This document shows, in pieces, positions 2,834 to 64,000 of a stretch of DNA of 64,000 bases. Source of the DNA: Lampris incognitus (Eukaryota > Chordata > Actinopteri > Lampriformes > Lampridae); assembly GCF_029633865.1 (NCBI RefSeq), contig NC_079230.1, forward strand, positions 30,267,388-30,331,387. The letters run 5' to 3'. Below the pieces are notes generated by a model. That model did no database searches. It saw only the letters and a list, made by a program, of their open reading frames with translations, and was not told where the DNA came from. The position numbers were made by a program, and so were the translations under genes. Each line of letters opens with the position of its first letter. The stretch's first letter is position 1.

Positions 2834-3035
2834 AGAGGACCTCATGTCCATGTCGTTAGAGAGAGAGAAGACCTCATGTCCATATCATTAGAGAGAGAGA
2901 GAGGACGTCATGTCCATGCCATTAGAGAGAGAGAGGACATCATGTCCATGTTATTAGAGAGAGAGGGGACATCATGTCCATGTTATTAGAGAGAGAGGGG
3001 ACATCATGTCCATATCATTAGAGAGAGAGAGAGGA
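2834..3035. repeat. Diverged continuation of the 32-bp satellite
   Basis: Six or so degenerate units with the same core (tcatgtccatgtcattaga) but longer gagaga tracts and gacatcatg replacing gacctcatg. This is the decayed edge of the array, separated from the main block by the LINE tail. Confidence 0.85.
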
Positions 3036-3636
3036 TTGCCTGCTGGCAACCTTTTTGAGGTCCATCCAGTCATGTGTCCTCTGCAGCTTGTAGAACACTA
3101 ACTGGGAATGTCATGGATGGAGGCTAGAATGATCCGGGCATCATGGGACTTTTCCCCGTTACATAAAGCACATAAAGGATAATTCACACTGTTGTAATGC
3201 TGAGCAACCCCCCCTATTAAGCAATTAAATTTCGGTTAATTTTCAATGTTTTGGAAAACTAATTGCTCGAGATCGGTTCAATTATTAGAAACATTGAAAC
3301 TTCGTGAACGTGAGTTTGTGTTTGTTTTTTGCATGGCAACCGGGAAGAAGGTGGCACAGTATGATAAAGTAGGCAAATCTGCTCGTTCCCGGAAGTTTTT
3401 ACTCACTCAAGCCGCCTGTTGGAAATGTTGATTTTTACCATTACCACGATAATACTCAACGCAGAAAGATGACTAAGCCATGTTATAGGTTTATTTTCGT
3501 TCCTGAGAAATTGGCCGTGCCCAATTCAGCCAGTTTCTCCTGAATCTGTCAGCCGTTTGGTGGCTTTTACAATGATGCAAAGGAGAAGGATTTGTCAGTT
3601 GCTTGACAGAGCACCATTTCAAATGAGCAAATTTGA
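3036..3636. other. No gene seen
   Basis: Single-copy-looking sequence. A 61-codon open frame at 3246-3431 has no recognisable domain and no splice or homology support. Confidence 0.5.
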
Positions 3637-3990
3637 GACGTCCGGGTAGCGTGGCGGTCTATTCCGTTGCCTACCAACACAGGGATCGCAGGTTCGAATT
3701 CCCGTGTTACCTCCGACTTGGTCGGGTGTTACAGGCACAGTTGGCCGTGTCTGTGGGTGGGAAGCCGGATGTAGGTATGTGTCCTGGTCGCAGCACTAGC
3801 GCCTCCTCTGGTCAGTCGGGGCGCCTGTTCGGGGGGGACTGGGGGGAGTAGCGTGATCCTCCCATGCGTTAAGTCCCCCTGGTGAAACTCCTCACTGTCA
3901 GGTGAAAAGAAGCGGCTGGTAGTCTGCAGCCCTTCCCAGATCCGCAGAGGGGGTGGAGCAGCGACCGGGACGGACCCTTGACTTTTTTTT
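3637..3990 (+). mobile_element. tRNA-derived SINE (family 1), copy 1
   Basis: The head carries pol III-like box A (gtagcgtggcgg) and box B (ggttcgaattcc). The body matches the other family copies here (16381, 19534 and others), including cctctggtcagtcggggcgc and gtgaaactcctcactgtcag. The 3' part is shortened compared with the copy at 16381-16784. Confidence 0.85.
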
Positions 3991-8586: not shown

Positions 8587-9600
8587 AGCCCATTATAACA
8601 GATGTGTTTTACTAGTCTTCCATTGTTCGCTGTGCTGTTGGTACCTGTGGCACTTTGTTTACTCGGCACACTTAGCTGTTGATTCAGAAAGGCGTGCCGA
8701 AATTAAATGTAGTGGAAACCACGCCCATCTGGCATAAACCGGCACTTTGCCTGATGGGTTTTGGAGCTCACCCAATGTTCCACAAAGCGCTCCTACAGGA
8801 GGTAACAGATGTGTTGTGGCCGAGAGAGAAAGGGGAGAAGGAAAGAAAGGTGGCCATACAAAGTGGTGTGTATCCCTGATACAGGGCTGTGGTCAGATTA
8901 CTACCAGAGTTGGGGCTTTTCTCCCAAAAAGGGGGCTTTTTATCCCTAACACAGGATCCCTTACGCAAGCCTTTGACCTACCACGGCTACAAATACACCA
9001 TGCTCGTGGACGACTCGCCACATAGTGGATATTTCAGGCGTAAAAACAGAATATCTTCATAACTATGAACTGATTATGCTGCTGTAGAAACCCTATCTGC
9101 TGCTTGGTTTCATCGAATACACTTGAGACCGTATGGATCTTTCATTTTTTGGGGGGTAGGTTACCCACAAAATGGTTGTAAACATCGGCTAAAATTGGTG
9201 GCGTTCGGATGGAATTCAAAACTTACTTTTAGACCGACTGGAAATCAAACCAAATTCAGGAAAACCCCCCCCCCTTTTTCTCCCGAATTGTATCCGGCCA
9301 GTTACCCCTAAATTCACGGAAAACACTACTCGCTGGACACGACCCGGGCGTGTCATCTGCACCGCAGGGGAAGTGGCGTGACCTCATCCTGCAGGAGCCT
9401 GTCAGCCCCTCCACCACTCAGGTCGGTGGATTCATCGCTTGTACTCCACCTGACTTCCCTGTTCAACGACTGGCTTGAAAATAGAAACCAACACGTGAAT
9501 ACTTGCACATATTATCCAGGTTTCTCACTACATGAATCCATAATGCAGACCACATTAATCATGTTGTTTAGCCGGTGCCATTGTGTGAGAGTGGCATGAC
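8587..9600. other. No gene seen
   Basis: Mixed sequence without tandem structure or a recognisable reading frame. Small open frames (for example 8679-8879 and 9378-9599) show no domain and no splice pattern compatible with the flanking peli3 exon. Confidence 0.45.
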
Positions 9601-9610
9601 ATGCAGAATT

Positions 9611-10004
9611 TTTGGGGATTTTTTTCCCCCTTTTTGGCCAGTTACCCCACTCTTCCGAGCCGTCCCGGTCTCTGCTCCACCCCCTCTGCTGATCCGGGGA
9701 GGGCTGCAGACTACCACGTGCCTCCTCCCATACATGTGGAGTCGCCAGCCGCTTCTTTTCACCTGACAGTGAGGAGTTTCACCAGGGAGACGTAGCGCGT
9801 GGGAGGATCACGCTATTCCCTCCCCGAACAGGCGCCCCGAGCGACCAGATGAGGCGCTAGTGCAGCGACCAGGAAACACACCCACATCTGGCTCCCCACC
9901 CGCAGACACGGCCAATTGTGCCTGACCAAGCCGGCGGTAACACGGGGATTCAAACCGGCGATCCCCGTGTTGGTAGGCAACGGAATAGACCACTACGCCA
10001 CCCA
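9611..10004 (-). mobile_element. tRNA-derived SINE (family 1), copy 2
   Basis: Full-length minus-strand copy: the tRNA-like head lies at the right end (box B ggtttgaatcc on the minus strand) and the body runs leftwards. Imperfect target duplications that share gacatgc followed by gaattt flank it (about 9592-9610 and 10005-10024). Confidence 0.88.
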
Positions 10005-10061
10005 GATGCCACGACATGCGGGAATTTCTAGCTATTAATTTTCTTATTCATGGTTAAAATT

Positions 10062-16380: not shown

Positions 16381-16784
16381 GGCGTCCGGGTGGCATGGCG
16401 GTCTATTCCGTTGCCTACCAACACGGGGATCACCGGTTCGAATCCCCGTGTTACCTCCGGCTTGGTTGGGCGTCCCTACAGACACAATTGGCCGTGTCTG
16501 CAGGTGGGAAGCCGGGTGTGGGTATGTGTCCTGGTCGCTGCACTAGCGCCTCCCTCTGGTCAGTTGGGGCGCCTGTTCAGGGGGGAGGGGGAACTGATCC
16601 TCCCTCACGCTACGTCCCCCTGGTGAAACTCCTCACTGTCAGGTGAAAAGGAGCGGCATGTGGTAGTCTGCAGCCCTCCCCGGATCAGCAGAGGGGGTGG
16701 AGCAGAGACCGGGACGGCTCAGAAGAGTGGGGTAATTGGCCAAGGACAATTGAGGAGAGGCGGGGGGTGTCCAAAAAAAAAATA
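16381..16784 (+). mobile_element. tRNA-derived SINE (family 1), copy 3, with target duplications
   Basis: Starts ggcgtccgggtggcatggcg. Box B is ggttcgaatcc at about 16435. It ends in a short A-rich tail. Flanking 12-bp duplications attcatcggaaa (16369-16380) and attcatgggaaa (16785-16796) differ at one base, so this is a retroposed copy with well-defined ends. Confidence 0.93.
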
Positions 16785-19533: not shown

Positions 19534-19966
19534 GGCGTCCGGGTGGCGTGGCGGTCTATTCTGTCGCCTACCGACACGGGGATCGCCGGTTCGAATCCCC
19601 GTGTTACCTCCGGCTTGGTCGGGCGTCCCCACAGACACAATTGGCCGTGTCTGTGGGTGTGAAGCCGGATGTGGGTATGTGTCCTGGTCCCTGCACTAGC
19701 GCCTCCTCTGGTCGGTTGGGGTGCCTGTTCAGGGGGGAGGGGGAACTGGGGGGGAATAGCGTGATCCACCCACGCGCTACGTCCCCCTGGTGAAACTCCT
19801 CGCTGTCAGGTGAAAAGAAGCGGCTGGTGACTCCACCTGTATGGGAGGAGACGTGGTAGTCTGCAGCCCTCCCCGGGTCGGCAGAGGGGGTGGAGCAGAG
19901 ACCGGGACGGCTCAAAGAATGGGGGTGATTGGCCAAGTACAGTTGGGGAGAAAAAGGGGAGGGAAT
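19534..19966 (+). mobile_element. tRNA-derived SINE (family 1), copy 4
   Basis: Full-length copy with head ggcgtccgggtggcgtggcg, box B ggttcgaatcc, the complete body (gtgaaactcctcgctgtcag) and a 3' end ttggggagaaaaagggg. The flanks are A/C-rich, so the target duplication is ambiguous. Confidence 0.9.
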
Positions 19967-23919: not shown

Positions 23920-24341
23920 TCTCCCCAATTGTATTCGGCCAATTACCCCACTCTTCCGAGCCGTCCCGGTCGCTGCCCCACCCCCTCTGCCGATCCCGGG
24001 AGGGCTGCAGACTACCACATGCCTCCTCCCATACATGTGGAGTCACCAGCCGCTTCTTTTCACCTGACAGTGAGGAGTTTCACCAGGGGGACGTAGCACG
24101 TGGGAGGATCACGCTATTTCCCCCAGTTCCCCCTCCCCCCGAACAGGCTCTCCGATCGACCAGAGGAGGCGCTAGTGCAGTGACCAGGACGCATACCCAC
24201 ATCCGGCTTCCCACCCGCAGACACGGCCAATTGTGTCTGTAGGGACGCCCGACCAAGCCGGAGGTAACACGGGGGTTCGATTCAGCGATCCCTGTGTTGG
24301 TAGGCAGCGGAGTAGAGCGCCGCGCTACCTGGACGCCCTGG
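23920..24341 (-). mobile_element. tRNA-derived SINE (family 1), copy 5
   Basis: Minus-strand full-length copy. Flanking near-duplications gcgttgctttt (23909-23919) and gcgttactttt (24342-24352) support retroposition. Box B is slightly decayed (ggttcgattca region read on the plus strand). Confidence 0.9.
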
Positions 24342-33844: not shown

Positions 33845-34278
33845 CCCCCCCCCCTTTTTCTCCCCAATTAAATCTGGTCAATTACCCCACTCTTCCGAGC
33901 CGTCCCGGTCTCTGTTCCGCCCCCTCTGCTGATCCGGGGAGGGTTGCAGACTACCACATGCCTCCTCCCATACATGTGGAGTCGCCAGCCGTTTCTTTTC
34001 ACCTGACAGTGAGGAGTTTCACCAGGGTGACGTAGCGCATGGGAGGATCACTTTAGTCGCCCCAGTTCCACCTCCCCCCCGAACAGGCGCCTCGATTGAC
34101 CAGAGGAGGCACTAGTGCAGCGACCGGGACACATATCCACATCTGGCTTCTCACCCACAGACACGGCCAATTGTGTCTGTAGGGACGCCCGACCAAGCCG
34201 GAGGTAACACGGGGATTCGAACCGGCGATCCCCGTGTTGGTAGGCAACGGAACAGACCGCCATGCCACCCGGACACCC
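33845..34278 (-). mobile_element. tRNA-derived SINE (family 1), copy 6
   Basis: Full-length minus-strand copy. Head at the right end (ccacccggacaccc in plus orientation), box B ggttcgaatcc on minus. The flanks share attttct. Confidence 0.9.
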
Positions 34279-50740: not shown

Positions 50741-50951
50741 ACTTCTTTATTCTAAGTGTAGGAAATATCTATGTATCATTCAAACGTTTCATAACCAATT
50801 TAGAATCCCAAGTCAGAAAACTAACAACAGGCTGTTTTGTCATTGTTCGTTTACAAATTGAAAATCGGAGAACCAATAACGGGCTGTTTTTCCTTGTTTT
50901 GCTCTGGTTCTGGAGTTAAAAATAGAATATGAGAAATTGGGGTATTTGTAG

Positions 50952-51325
50952 TGTAAGCGGTTATTATCTTGCCCGGTGCGGGATTCGATACGGAGTGTAC
51001 TGCACCATAAGGCGACGTCACTAACCGCTCGGCTAAAGGGTCAAAGTCGTTAGTTAGGGGGCTAACGGGTCTTATTAGTAGTTTACAGTCGTCACCCTCC
51101 CCGGAAGCGCGCCCTCGCGCTTTGTTCTTCCCGCACTCCGAAGAGACTTCTGAGGATCTGCACACTTCCGGATCCCACCGCTGCCACCAATGTAACCGGT
51201 TATTTTCTTGCCCGGTGCGGGATTCGATACGGGGTGTACTGCACCACAAGGCGACATCGCTAACCGCTCGGCTAAAGGTTCAGACCCGTTAACTAAGGGC
51301 TAACGTGTCTTATTAGTAGTTTACA
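50952..51325 (-). mobile_element. TRIM-like miniature LTR element with tRNA-like LTR, copy 1
   Basis: Direct terminal repeats at 50952-51087 and 51191-51325 (135-136 bp) flank a 103 bp interior. On the minus strand each repeat begins TGTAAACTACTAATAAGACA and ends TAACCGGTTACA, the TG...CA form of LTRs. After the left LTR (minus sense) comes TTGGTGGCAGCGGTGGGATC, a plausible tRNA primer-binding site. Before the other LTR is a purine-rich CCGGGGAGGGTGA. Each LTR holds box A TAGCCGAGCGG and a box B-like GTATCGAATCC 33 bases later. GTAG lies on both sides (50948-50951 and 51326-51329), a 4-bp target duplication. There is no reading frame, so it is non-autonomous. The reading as a TRIM is inference. 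Confidence 0.8.
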
Positions 51326-51584
51326 GTAGTCTTTGAATTTTTTCGTTTAACATTTCCGGTTTGCTGGGACCAGGAAATTGTCGACGTTTCACGTGCCTGG
51401 ACAGACGTGAGCGGCGGCTCATCCAGTCGTTCAACTGTCTGCCAGCTGCCGAGCCTGGAGTCATAAACTGCCGTAAAGTGAAACAGTGGTCAAACCGGCT
51501 GCCTTCTGAATTTCGTTGCGCCTAAAGTAGCGTCATTACGGGAAGGGCGGCTTCGGAGCGCGGCGGAGGTCCTGAAAGATACGG

Positions 51585-52021
51585 ATGGGTTATTCTCAAT
51601 CACGTGACCCTCTTTTTTTTTAGACAACGAACAGCTCCGCCATCTTGGAGGGCAGCTAGACCTTAGCAACCACCGTTTACGCCGGAGATCTGATTGTCGA
51701 TCTGTGTTTACAAGAACGACACGCTGTCCGCTGGCTGGCAGGTCTGACCCTTTAGTCTAGCGGTTAGCGATGCCTCCTGCGGTGCGGGCGATACGGGTTC
51801 GCGTCCCGGCCGCGGCAGTTCCTGTGGTTGCGTTGTCCCCCCGAATTCGCTACAGTATGAATCAAACCTTGAAACACATTCCGTCACGCTGACTGTTTGG
51901 AAGACCTTTAGCATCGCGCAGGGAGAGCAACGCAGCATCCTACGGACTGGAGCCGTTGTCCTCCAACATGGCGGACGTGTTGCCGTCACGTGGTATGTGA
52001 CGTAATATGAGAATAACCCAT
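51585..52021. mobile_element. MITE with about 65-bp imperfect inverted ends and internal tRNA-like module
   Basis: Ends are atgggttattctca and its reverse complement. The inversion continues imperfectly inward through tcacgtgac and ctccgccatcttggagg (left) versus cctccaacatggcggac (right). Inside, at about 51742-51860 on the plus strand, is tgaccctttagtctagcggt then tagcgatg and gggttcgcgtcccgg, a box A/box B pair related to the module in the neighbouring TRIM LTRs. The target duplication is unclear. Confidence 0.72.
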
Positions 52022-52029
52022 ATCCCTTT

Positions 52030-52570
52030 TCTGTCATCAAATCAGACCAAATCAATTTTATTTGCATAGCCCAATATCACAAATTTGCCTCAGTGGGCTT
52101 AACAGTGTAACCGGTTGTTTTCTTGCCCGGTGCGGGATTCGATACGGAGTGTACTGCACCACAAGGCAGCGTCACTAATCGCTCGGCTAAAGGGTCAGAC
52201 CCGTTAGCTAGGGGCTAACGTGTCTTATTAGTTGTTTACAGTCGTCACCCTCCCCGGAAGCGCGCCCTCGCGCTTTGTTATTCCCGCGCTCCGAAGAGAC
52301 TTCTGAGGATCTGCACACTTCCGGATCCCACCGCTGCCACTAACGTAACCGGTTATTTTCTTGCCCGGTGCGGGATTCGATACGGGGTGTACTGCACCAC
52401 AAGGCCACATCACTAACCGCTCGGCTAAAGGGTCAGACCCGTTAGCTAGGAGGCTGACGTGTCTTATTAGTAGTTTACAACAGCTACACAACATCCTGTC
52501 CTTAGACCCTCTCATCGGATAAGGAACAACTCCCGGAAAAAAAACCTTTAACGGAGAAAAATGTTTCTCT
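52030..52570. mobile_element. Interspersed repeat split by TRIM copy 2
   Basis: Sequence 52037-52105 (tttatttgcatagcccaata, aatttgcctcagtgggctta) and 52480-52570 (acatcctgtccttagaccct, ggagaaaaatg) read as one common fish repeat once the 374-bp TRIM is removed. The join is ggcttaacag then ctacacaacatc. The family name is not assigned. Confidence 0.65.
52106..52479 (-). mobile_element. TRIM-like miniature LTR element with tRNA-like LTR, copy 2
   Basis: Same architecture and length (374 bp) as the copy at 50952: terminal repeats 52106-52240 and 52344-52479, interior 52241-52343. It differs from copy 1 by scattered substitutions. The flanks carry ACAG on both sides (52102-52105 and 52480-52483), a different target duplication, so it inserted independently. 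The host site is another repeat, letting the empty site be inferred. It is in the same intron and orientation as copy 1. Confidence 0.8.
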
Positions 52571-63511: not shown

Positions 63512-63922
63512 CCCCCCCTATTGTACTTGGCCAATTACCCCACTCTTCTGAGCCGTCCCGGTCTCTGCTGCACCCCCTCTGCCGATCTGGGGAGGGCTAC
63601 AGACTACCACATACCTCCTCCCATAGTACATGTGGAGTCGCCAGCCGCTCCTTTTCACCTGACAGTAAGGAGTTTCACCAGGGGGACGTAGCGCGTGGGA
63701 GGATCACGCTATTCCCCCTCCCCGAACATGCGCCTTGACTGACCAGAGGAGGCGCTAGCGCAGCGGCCAGGACACATACCCACATCCGGCGTCCTACCCG
63801 CAGACACGGCCAATTGTGTCTGTAGGGACGCCCAACCAAGCCGGAGGTAACACGGGGATTCGAACCGGCGATTCCTGTGTTGGTAGGCAACGGAATAGAC
63901 CACCGCGCCACCCGGACGCCCC
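63512..63922 (-). mobile_element. tRNA-derived SINE (family 1), copy 9
   Basis: Full-length minus-strand copy, box B ggttcgaatcc on minus. Target duplications gagtaccttgtt (63500-63511) and gaataccttgtt (63923-63934) flank it. Confidence 0.92.
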
Positions 63923-64000
63923 GAATACCTTGTTTTTTTTTTTAGACTTTACTGTGTCAGATATGCAAACAAAGCCAAGATTCAGCCTTAAACAGCATGG

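Follow-up and report, generated by a model that had tools for sequence, protein, structure and literature searches.

The closest described system to the elements reported here is Helenus, which was described in 2024 by Kojima in coelacanth, sturgeon/paddlefish and Ostariophysi (PMC10886601) and is mentioned in a 2026 meeting report (PMC12859917). Both this name and the term TRIMp3, for a TRIM driven by RNA polymerase III (pol III), come from the former paper. In its accessible text Helenus is defined by sequence anatomy, the pol III promoter function is given without experimental validation, and mobilisation by Gypsy elements is deduced from similar primer sites. For the TRIMs of plants, exon capture is already known (PMC4717578, accessible part). 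Titles and abstract openings in the literature on TRIM/Helenus, in which few subscription papers were covered, gave no other report on tRNA-LTR TRIMs of fish, and no LTR or SINE sequence letters were found in papers.

We analysed 64,000 nt of Lampris incognitus (GCF_029633865.1, NC_079230.1, 30,267,388-30,331,387); this whole stretch is called the window, and its positions serve as coordinates below. It contains two small elements, which an earlier note on this DNA had taken for an animal miniature LTR element with a tRNA-like LTR. That reading is well supported by 4-bp duplications at independent copies, solo LTRs, a primer binding site (PBS) for tRNA-Leu, a purine tract and related box-bearing LTR families: the elements are miniature LTR retrotransposons with a tRNA-like stretch in the LTR. 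The further statement of the note that no described fish family was alike was wrong at the level of kind, Helenus having been described in 2024 (PMC10886601). We consider it likely that both elements belong to a single non-autonomous TRIM family of the Helenus type (family A), with the cycle proposed below.

Anatomy of the two window elements

Element 1 (50952-51325) and element 2 (52106-52479) are both 374 bp long, and their sense strand is the minus strand, so that the right-hand repeats are the 5' LTRs. On the sense strand the order is 5' LTR, one base, the 18-nt PBS, a palindrome with a purine tract, and 3' LTR. The features of the window are the following.

50948-50951, no strand: target site duplication gtag of element 1, left copy, exact pair with 51326-51329
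50952-51087, minus: element 1, 3' LTR, 136 bp
51088-51190, minus: element 1, interior, 103 bp
51095-51102, minus: element 1, purine-rich tract GGGGAGGG, ending 7 nt before the 3' LTR
51105-51122, minus: element 1, palindrome AAGCGCG-AGGG-CGCGCTT beside the purine tract
51172-51189, minus: element 1, PBS, 18/18 to the tRNA-Leu 3' end plus CCA
51191-51325, minus: element 1, 5' LTR, 135 bp
51220-51230, minus: element 1, 5' LTR, box B-like GTATCGAATCC
51264-51274, minus: element 1, 5' LTR, box A TAGCCGAGCGG
51326-51329, no strand: target site duplication gtag of element 1, right copy
51587-52019, no strand: inverted-repeat (MITE-like) unit between elements 1 and 2, arms ~100 bp
51705-51854, plus: diverged solo LTR of family B, box B GGTTCGCGTCC, in the middle of the MITE-like unit
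52102-52105, no strand: target site duplication acag of element 2, left copy, exact pair with 52480-52483
52106-52240, minus: element 2, 3' LTR, 135 bp
52135-52145, minus: element 2, 3' LTR, box B-like stretch
52179-52189, minus: element 2, 3' LTR, box A with one change
52241-52343, minus: element 2, interior, 103 bp
52325-52342, minus: element 2, PBS, 17/18
52344-52479, minus: element 2, 5' LTR, 136 bp, sense end ACG
52373-52383, minus: element 2, 5' LTR, box B-like stretch
52417-52427, minus: element 2, 5' LTR, box A
52480-52483, no strand: target site duplication acag of element 2, right copy
3639-3973, 9634-10010, 16381-16758, 19534-19951, 23920-24337, 33859-34277 and 63520-63926: SINE-like interspersed repeat of ~340-420 bp, with box B-like GGTTCGAATCC in some copies

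The earlier note had read two LTR/interior/LTR copies, each with a private 4-bp duplication, and both statements were confirmed, with LTRs of 135/136 bp, interiors of 103 bp and duplications (gtag, acag) that are exact. Its description of every repeat as TGT...ACA holds on the sense strand for 3/4, but not for the 5' LTR of element 2, which ends in ACG; likewise, the perfect box A that it gave to each repeat is present in 3/4, but in the 3' LTR of element 2 one position is changed. The box B-like stretch 33 bases from box A was recovered unchanged in 4/4 repeats. The tRNA primer site, which matches the tRNA-Leu 3' end at 18/18 positions in element 1 and 17/18 in element 2, was likewise confirmed, as was the purine-rich tract at the other repeat. 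With up to 3 mismatches allowed, the PBS pattern occurs in the 64-kb window only at 51172-51189 (0 mismatches) and 52325-52342 (1 mismatch), the mean in shuffles being 0.02. The palindrome of element 1 could form a hairpin, yet this is absent from the minimum-energy fold of the interior, and no stable fold of LTR or interior was found in four sequences (z -0.3 to -2.0).

Genome copies, related families and the tRNA-like stretch

Searching the host genome (1.48 Gb) with the 374-bp unit and with a single LTR, as the earlier note had proposed, revealed an abundant family. A 30-nt junction of LTR end, PBS and interior start has 1,546 exact occurrences, which is a lower bound on the copies of family A, and its reversed-pattern control has 0. 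The full-element query gave 46 matches, 40 of its 1,649 candidates having been scored, and the LTR query 42, with 40 of 465 scored; 30 loci were cut from each (60 in all), and both sets are best matches, hence biased to low divergence. Duplications were counted only in distinct chains whose two outer ends were both aligned; a chain lacking either end was discarded. Exact 4-bp duplications were found at 23 of the 36 complete copies, with 6 more having one mismatch (permuted mean 1.6, largest 7), at 9 of the 15 solo LTRs, with 3 more having one mismatch (permuted 0.9, largest 6), and at one of two three-LTR arrays. Among 36 exact duplications scored for composition, which include 3 from other chain types, T stands at position 2 in 26 and A at position 3 in 30. 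Tandem arrays are present in L011, L021, L027 and L044. Across 28 aligned complete elements the PBS match is 18 in 23, 17 in 4 and 8 in 1. No family A copy was found in 20 kb of unselected DNA (L061, L062), where partial relatives occur in L062 only, and the LTR or interior patterns had 0 matches in three viral-contig scans and one genome-contig scan.

The solo LTR at 51705-51854, at which no target duplication was seen, is opposite in orientation to elements 1 and 2 and belongs to family B. This family has LTRs of ~150-157 bp, an interior of ~115 bp, GGTTC in box B and the PBS TGGTGTCAGAAGTGGGAT, of another tRNA-Leu type; its junction of LTR end and PBS has 2,658 copies in the genome. The palindrome stem of element 1 recurs in the interiors of families B and C, there with the loop GGGA, and in family B it stands by the purine tract, as in family A. 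GGTTC is also found in box B of the third type, C (L047), and AGTTC in that of a fourth, D, a tandem array in L062; box A of types C and D departs at one place. The tRNA alignment was better than 200/200 shuffles for 3/3 sequences of B and 2/2 of C, the score of D was reached by 1/200 shuffles, and the tRNA-likeness of a fifth fragment, E (L062), was no better than that of shuffles (29/200). On the alignment, judged by eye and not counted, the boxes seem better kept than the remainder across related LTRs.

Mosaic arrangements were also observed. At 448-582 of L007 (sense strand), the start of a family B LTR is joined to the tRNA-like part of family A, and at 1333-1518 of L065 (PBS-showing strand) a family B-type LTR is followed by the family A PBS, a primer-site change between related elements. 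In L062, the type D tandem array (1754-2959) adjoins one arm of a ~540-bp inverted repeat (2951-3483 / 9205-9747, 96% identity); similar blocks 7.3 kb apart in this locus had been considered as a large LTR element, which was rejected in favour of the tandem array plus inverted repeat.

The tRNA check of the family A LTR gave a divided answer. ARAGORN found 0 whole tRNAs in it and Rfam gave no tRNA match (nor was a 5S rRNA match found in Rfam), but when both LTRs of element 2 were locally aligned with 14 human tRNAs, the best match of each was tRNA-His, over ~50 nt including the anticodon arm, and this alignment beat 500/500 shuffles for 2/2 LTRs. A tRNA-like interior was discarded, 90/500 shuffles being equally good. 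Box A of family A fits the consensus TRGYNNARNNG; among genome LTRs TAGCCGAGCGG is exact in 47/56 and GTATCGAATCC in 52/56. The core of box B is GTATC, not GGTTC, in 4/4 window LTRs and in 52/56 genome LTRs. Near the start of the LTR there is an AATAA stretch.

We infer from this anatomy that family A may be transcribed by pol III. The elements could alternatively be ordinary TRIMs transcribed by RNA polymerase II, whose tRNA-like part would be a non-functional remnant passed on by descent; the altered core of box B, the AATAA stretch and the fact that no tRNA model scores on the LTR would all suit such an origin of the transcript. We regard it as unlikely, though as a serious alternative, since the altered box B is itself kept in 52/56 LTRs, albeit young-looking best matches, and GGTTC is present in families B and C, whose LTRs are diverged.

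Proposed cycle, a candidate partner and a copy with a cdcp1 piece

In the first step of the proposed cycle, pol III, directed by the tRNA-like boxes of the 5' LTR, would start slightly upstream of box A and read through the interior and 3' LTR; the sense sequences of elements 1 and 2 hold no TTTT that would stop it. Gypsy-like proteins would then package the RNA, and tRNA-Leu would pair with the 18-nt PBS, a site that is observed and presumably used in this way. Reverse transcription of the LTR type would follow, producing both LTRs from one template, as is supported by the alleles of paired LTRs and by the copy L068 described below. Finally, an integrase would insert the product, giving the observed 4-bp duplications, in which the second base is mostly T and the third mostly A. 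The observed solo LTRs and tandem arrays presumably arose via LTR recombination.

In 44 distinct elements, minor alleles common to own LTR pairs numbered 25, in comparison to 10.5 in permuted pairs (0/500 as high), which supports LTR-type reverse transcription making both LTRs from one template. Two LTR sites in elements 1 and 2 had suggested non-homogenised LTRs, the 5' LTRs agreeing with each other and the 3' LTRs likewise, and the 3' LTRs of 28 genome copies appeared more diverged (P 0.0008); this was dropped because of allele sharing within own pairs and of a query bias, the LTR used for picking showing less divergence whichever side it stood on (2.4 vs 7.6 differences in 11 elements; 2.7 vs 10.0 in 6). 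Between copies, interiors vary by 2.8% and LTRs by 3.3-5.7%. The interiors of elements 1 and 2 (51088-51190 vs 52241-52343) differ at 3/103 sites, whereas the ages of their LTRs, which differ within element 1 in 15/136 aligned columns and within element 2 in 10/136, predict ~9.5 (P ~0.01). The low interior divergence relative to LTRs counts against our best explanation.

The same PBS with another continuation was found at 49 sites, 12 of which were read. They yielded a candidate partner:

L070 1245-3020 and L077 2-2509: Gypsy-like element

In L070, a 255-bp LTR ending in GGTTACA is followed by T and a PBS identical to that of family A. An aspartyl protease (PF13975, 1.7e-8) lies downstream, two other L070 frames had no Pfam match, and L070/L077 hold an 835-aa frame with RVT_1, RNase H, H2C2 and rve; the stretch examined ends before the 3' LTR. 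The L070-type LTR is present twice in L066, around ~240 bp. At L067 and L073/L074 the PBS stands beside long frames that are retrotransposon-like by eye; the one frame of these that was scanned, in L073, had no Pfam match. As regards a larger element sharing the ends of family A, the LTR end and PBS are common to this family and L070/L077, but past 19 nt nothing matches. With the PBS present at other loci too, L070/L077 as the helper of family A is a lead, not a proof.

One copy of family A carries a piece of a host gene:

L068, reverse complement 1365-2279; C2:111686538-111687074: copy with cdcp1 piece

This copy (C2:111687073, minus) has the order LTR - PBS - 537 bp - PBS - interior - LTR, and the 537-bp insert codes for a portion of CDCP1 (PF23665 CDCP1_CUB_6, E 8e-33); no match to the insert was found in the PDB. 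The genome search with the insert gave five matches, namely L068 itself (contiguous), three cdcp1 exons on C24 with 98, 98 and 100% identity, and one match on C12 with 69% identity over the first 243 bases; the chimera is single, not amplified. Between the C24 exons lie introns of 414 and 274 bp, the second of which begins with GT if the join is shifted by one base common to both exons. When joined, these exons differ from the insert at 9/540 sites. The 5' join has a nine-base stretch, CGGTGGGAT, that occurs both in the PBS and in the parent gene; the 3' join has six bases that match neither of them, after which the PBS begins exactly. L068 has no 4-bp duplication (AGTA/CACA), and its LTRs differ by 5 substitutions and one 14-bp deletion; these two points and the single occurrence weigh against the capture reading given below. 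Of 11 odd sites, L068 itself and six more (L078-L083) were read, and these six have mutated, diverged or shortened LTRs and no capture; 3 others show ACATGG (a lost T), and C24:9249081 lies in L022, an ordinary copy.

The explanation of L068 that we favour, with a fair degree of confidence, is that, midway through its own reverse transcription, a tRNA-promoter TRIM captured a spliced host mRNA, so that the cdcp1 cDNA lies between a PBS copied from the element RNA and one copied from tRNA-Leu. The minus strand, after copying the RNA's own PBS, would have jumped to the cdcp1 mRNA, and the plus-strand strong stop, ending in the tRNA-copied PBS, would have joined the cdcp1 cDNA at the common 9-nt stretch. 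Strand transfer of the LTR type would place the repeat edges at the PBS edges, and the direct repeat in L068 is exactly the 18-nt PBS on both edges. This coincidence, together with the nine nucleotides that the 5' join has in common with the PBS and an insert that is an internal exon piece without poly(A), makes it rather improbable that a LINE inserted cdcp1 cDNA into an existing element, the two PBS being the LINE's target duplication, even though retrocopies made by LINEs can be flanked by direct repeats of such a length, no second copy of this sort was found and L068 is without a 4-bp duplication of its own.

Local duplication of a single insertion as the source of both window copies was set aside as highly improbable. 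The elements are 780 bp apart in the same orientation, and at two LTR sites the 5' LTRs agree with each other and so do the 3' LTRs; such a two-site grouping, however, arose in 18% of star-tree simulations with hot CpG sites (1.7% without them), and the target duplications differ and the flanks do not match, in agreement with the two independent elements of the earlier note. BLAST of the window with the element gave the two copies, one diverged LTR between them and short chance-like matches, and the similarity between elements 1 and 2 ends at the element borders; thus, they look like separate insertions and not like one duplicated segment. No empty sites of the two elements were found elsewhere in the window. 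There is next to no chance that a SINE dimer or tandem SINE came to resemble an LTR element, for although tRNA-like boxes are present and SINE-like repeats of ~375 bp that include a box B-like stretch occur commonly in the window, the LTR-interior-LTR anatomy is constant, the PBS is of tRNA-Leu type, the 4-bp duplications and duplicated solo LTRs refute such a dimer, and the traits of SINEs (absence of LTRs, and insertion of the LINE type, whose target duplications are longer and variable) are not those of family A. None of the outcomes that the earlier note had named as contrary to its reading (a SINE dimer, no duplications, no solo LTRs) appeared.

Comparison with Helenus and other TRIMs

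Compared by described anatomy, in so far as the text of PMC10886601 is accessible, family A fits Helenus, and its kind is thereby already known. Helenus elements have two LTRs, no protein and a length of 311-1263 bp; family A has 374 bp with an interior of 103 bp. Their LTR is tRNA-derived, as is indicated here by the alignment with tRNA-His, though ARAGORN and Rfam do not recognise it; the best match is tRNA-His here and tRNA-Val-CAC for the fish Helenus of that paper. Box A of most members, TRGCY..YGG, is matched by TAGCCGAGCGG in 3/4 window and 47/56 genome LTRs. Box B of Helenus is GGTTC, a reported trait and not part of the definition; it is GTATC in family A, and GGTTC in families B and C. 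The PBS of vertebrate Helenus corresponds to the 3' end of tRNA-His, -Leu or -Lys, here to that of tRNA-Leu (18/18, 17/18), and the polypurine tract before the 3' LTR is represented by GGGGAGGG. Target duplications of 4 bp, as given for animals, are exact at 23/36 complete copies, and the solo LTRs and tandem arrays reported for members have their counterparts in 9/15 duplicated solo LTRs and in arrays. LTR-11_DR, a fish Helenus, is likewise described with thousands of copies and tandem arrays. The Helenus PBS resembles that of Gypsy elements (PMC10886601); L070/L077 is a candidate Gypsy-like partner of family A with the same PBS, which stands at other loci too.

Other TRIMs are similar in part, according to the accessible text of the same paper. 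Cassandra of plants is likewise a TRIM with a small-RNA-derived pol III promoter in its LTR, but its LTR is 5S rRNA-derived, and family A had no 5S match in Rfam (PMC10886601). Ajax of nemerteans also combines a small-RNA promoter in the LTR with a tRNA-Leu PBS; it differs in being 5S rRNA-derived and in its 5-bp duplications (PMC10886601). In Lampris incognitus, two abundant tRNA-LTR families with tRNA-Leu-type PBS, a common palindrome and a candidate Gypsy-like helper make the helper question directly testable.

The cdcp1 piece of L068, if read correctly, records the strand-transfer step itself. It would provide direct evidence, from sequence, for the priming of Helenus RNA by tRNA-Leu and for the completion of LTR strand transfer amid cellular mRNA, and such a capture would mean that Helenus-type elements can move exons. 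Plant TRIMs with exon pieces and maize Bs1 are likewise small LTR elements holding intron-free host gene pieces (PMC4717578, accessible part); L068 differs from the exon-carrying TRIMs of plants in being an animal tRNA-LTR element with one piece flanked by exact PBS copies.
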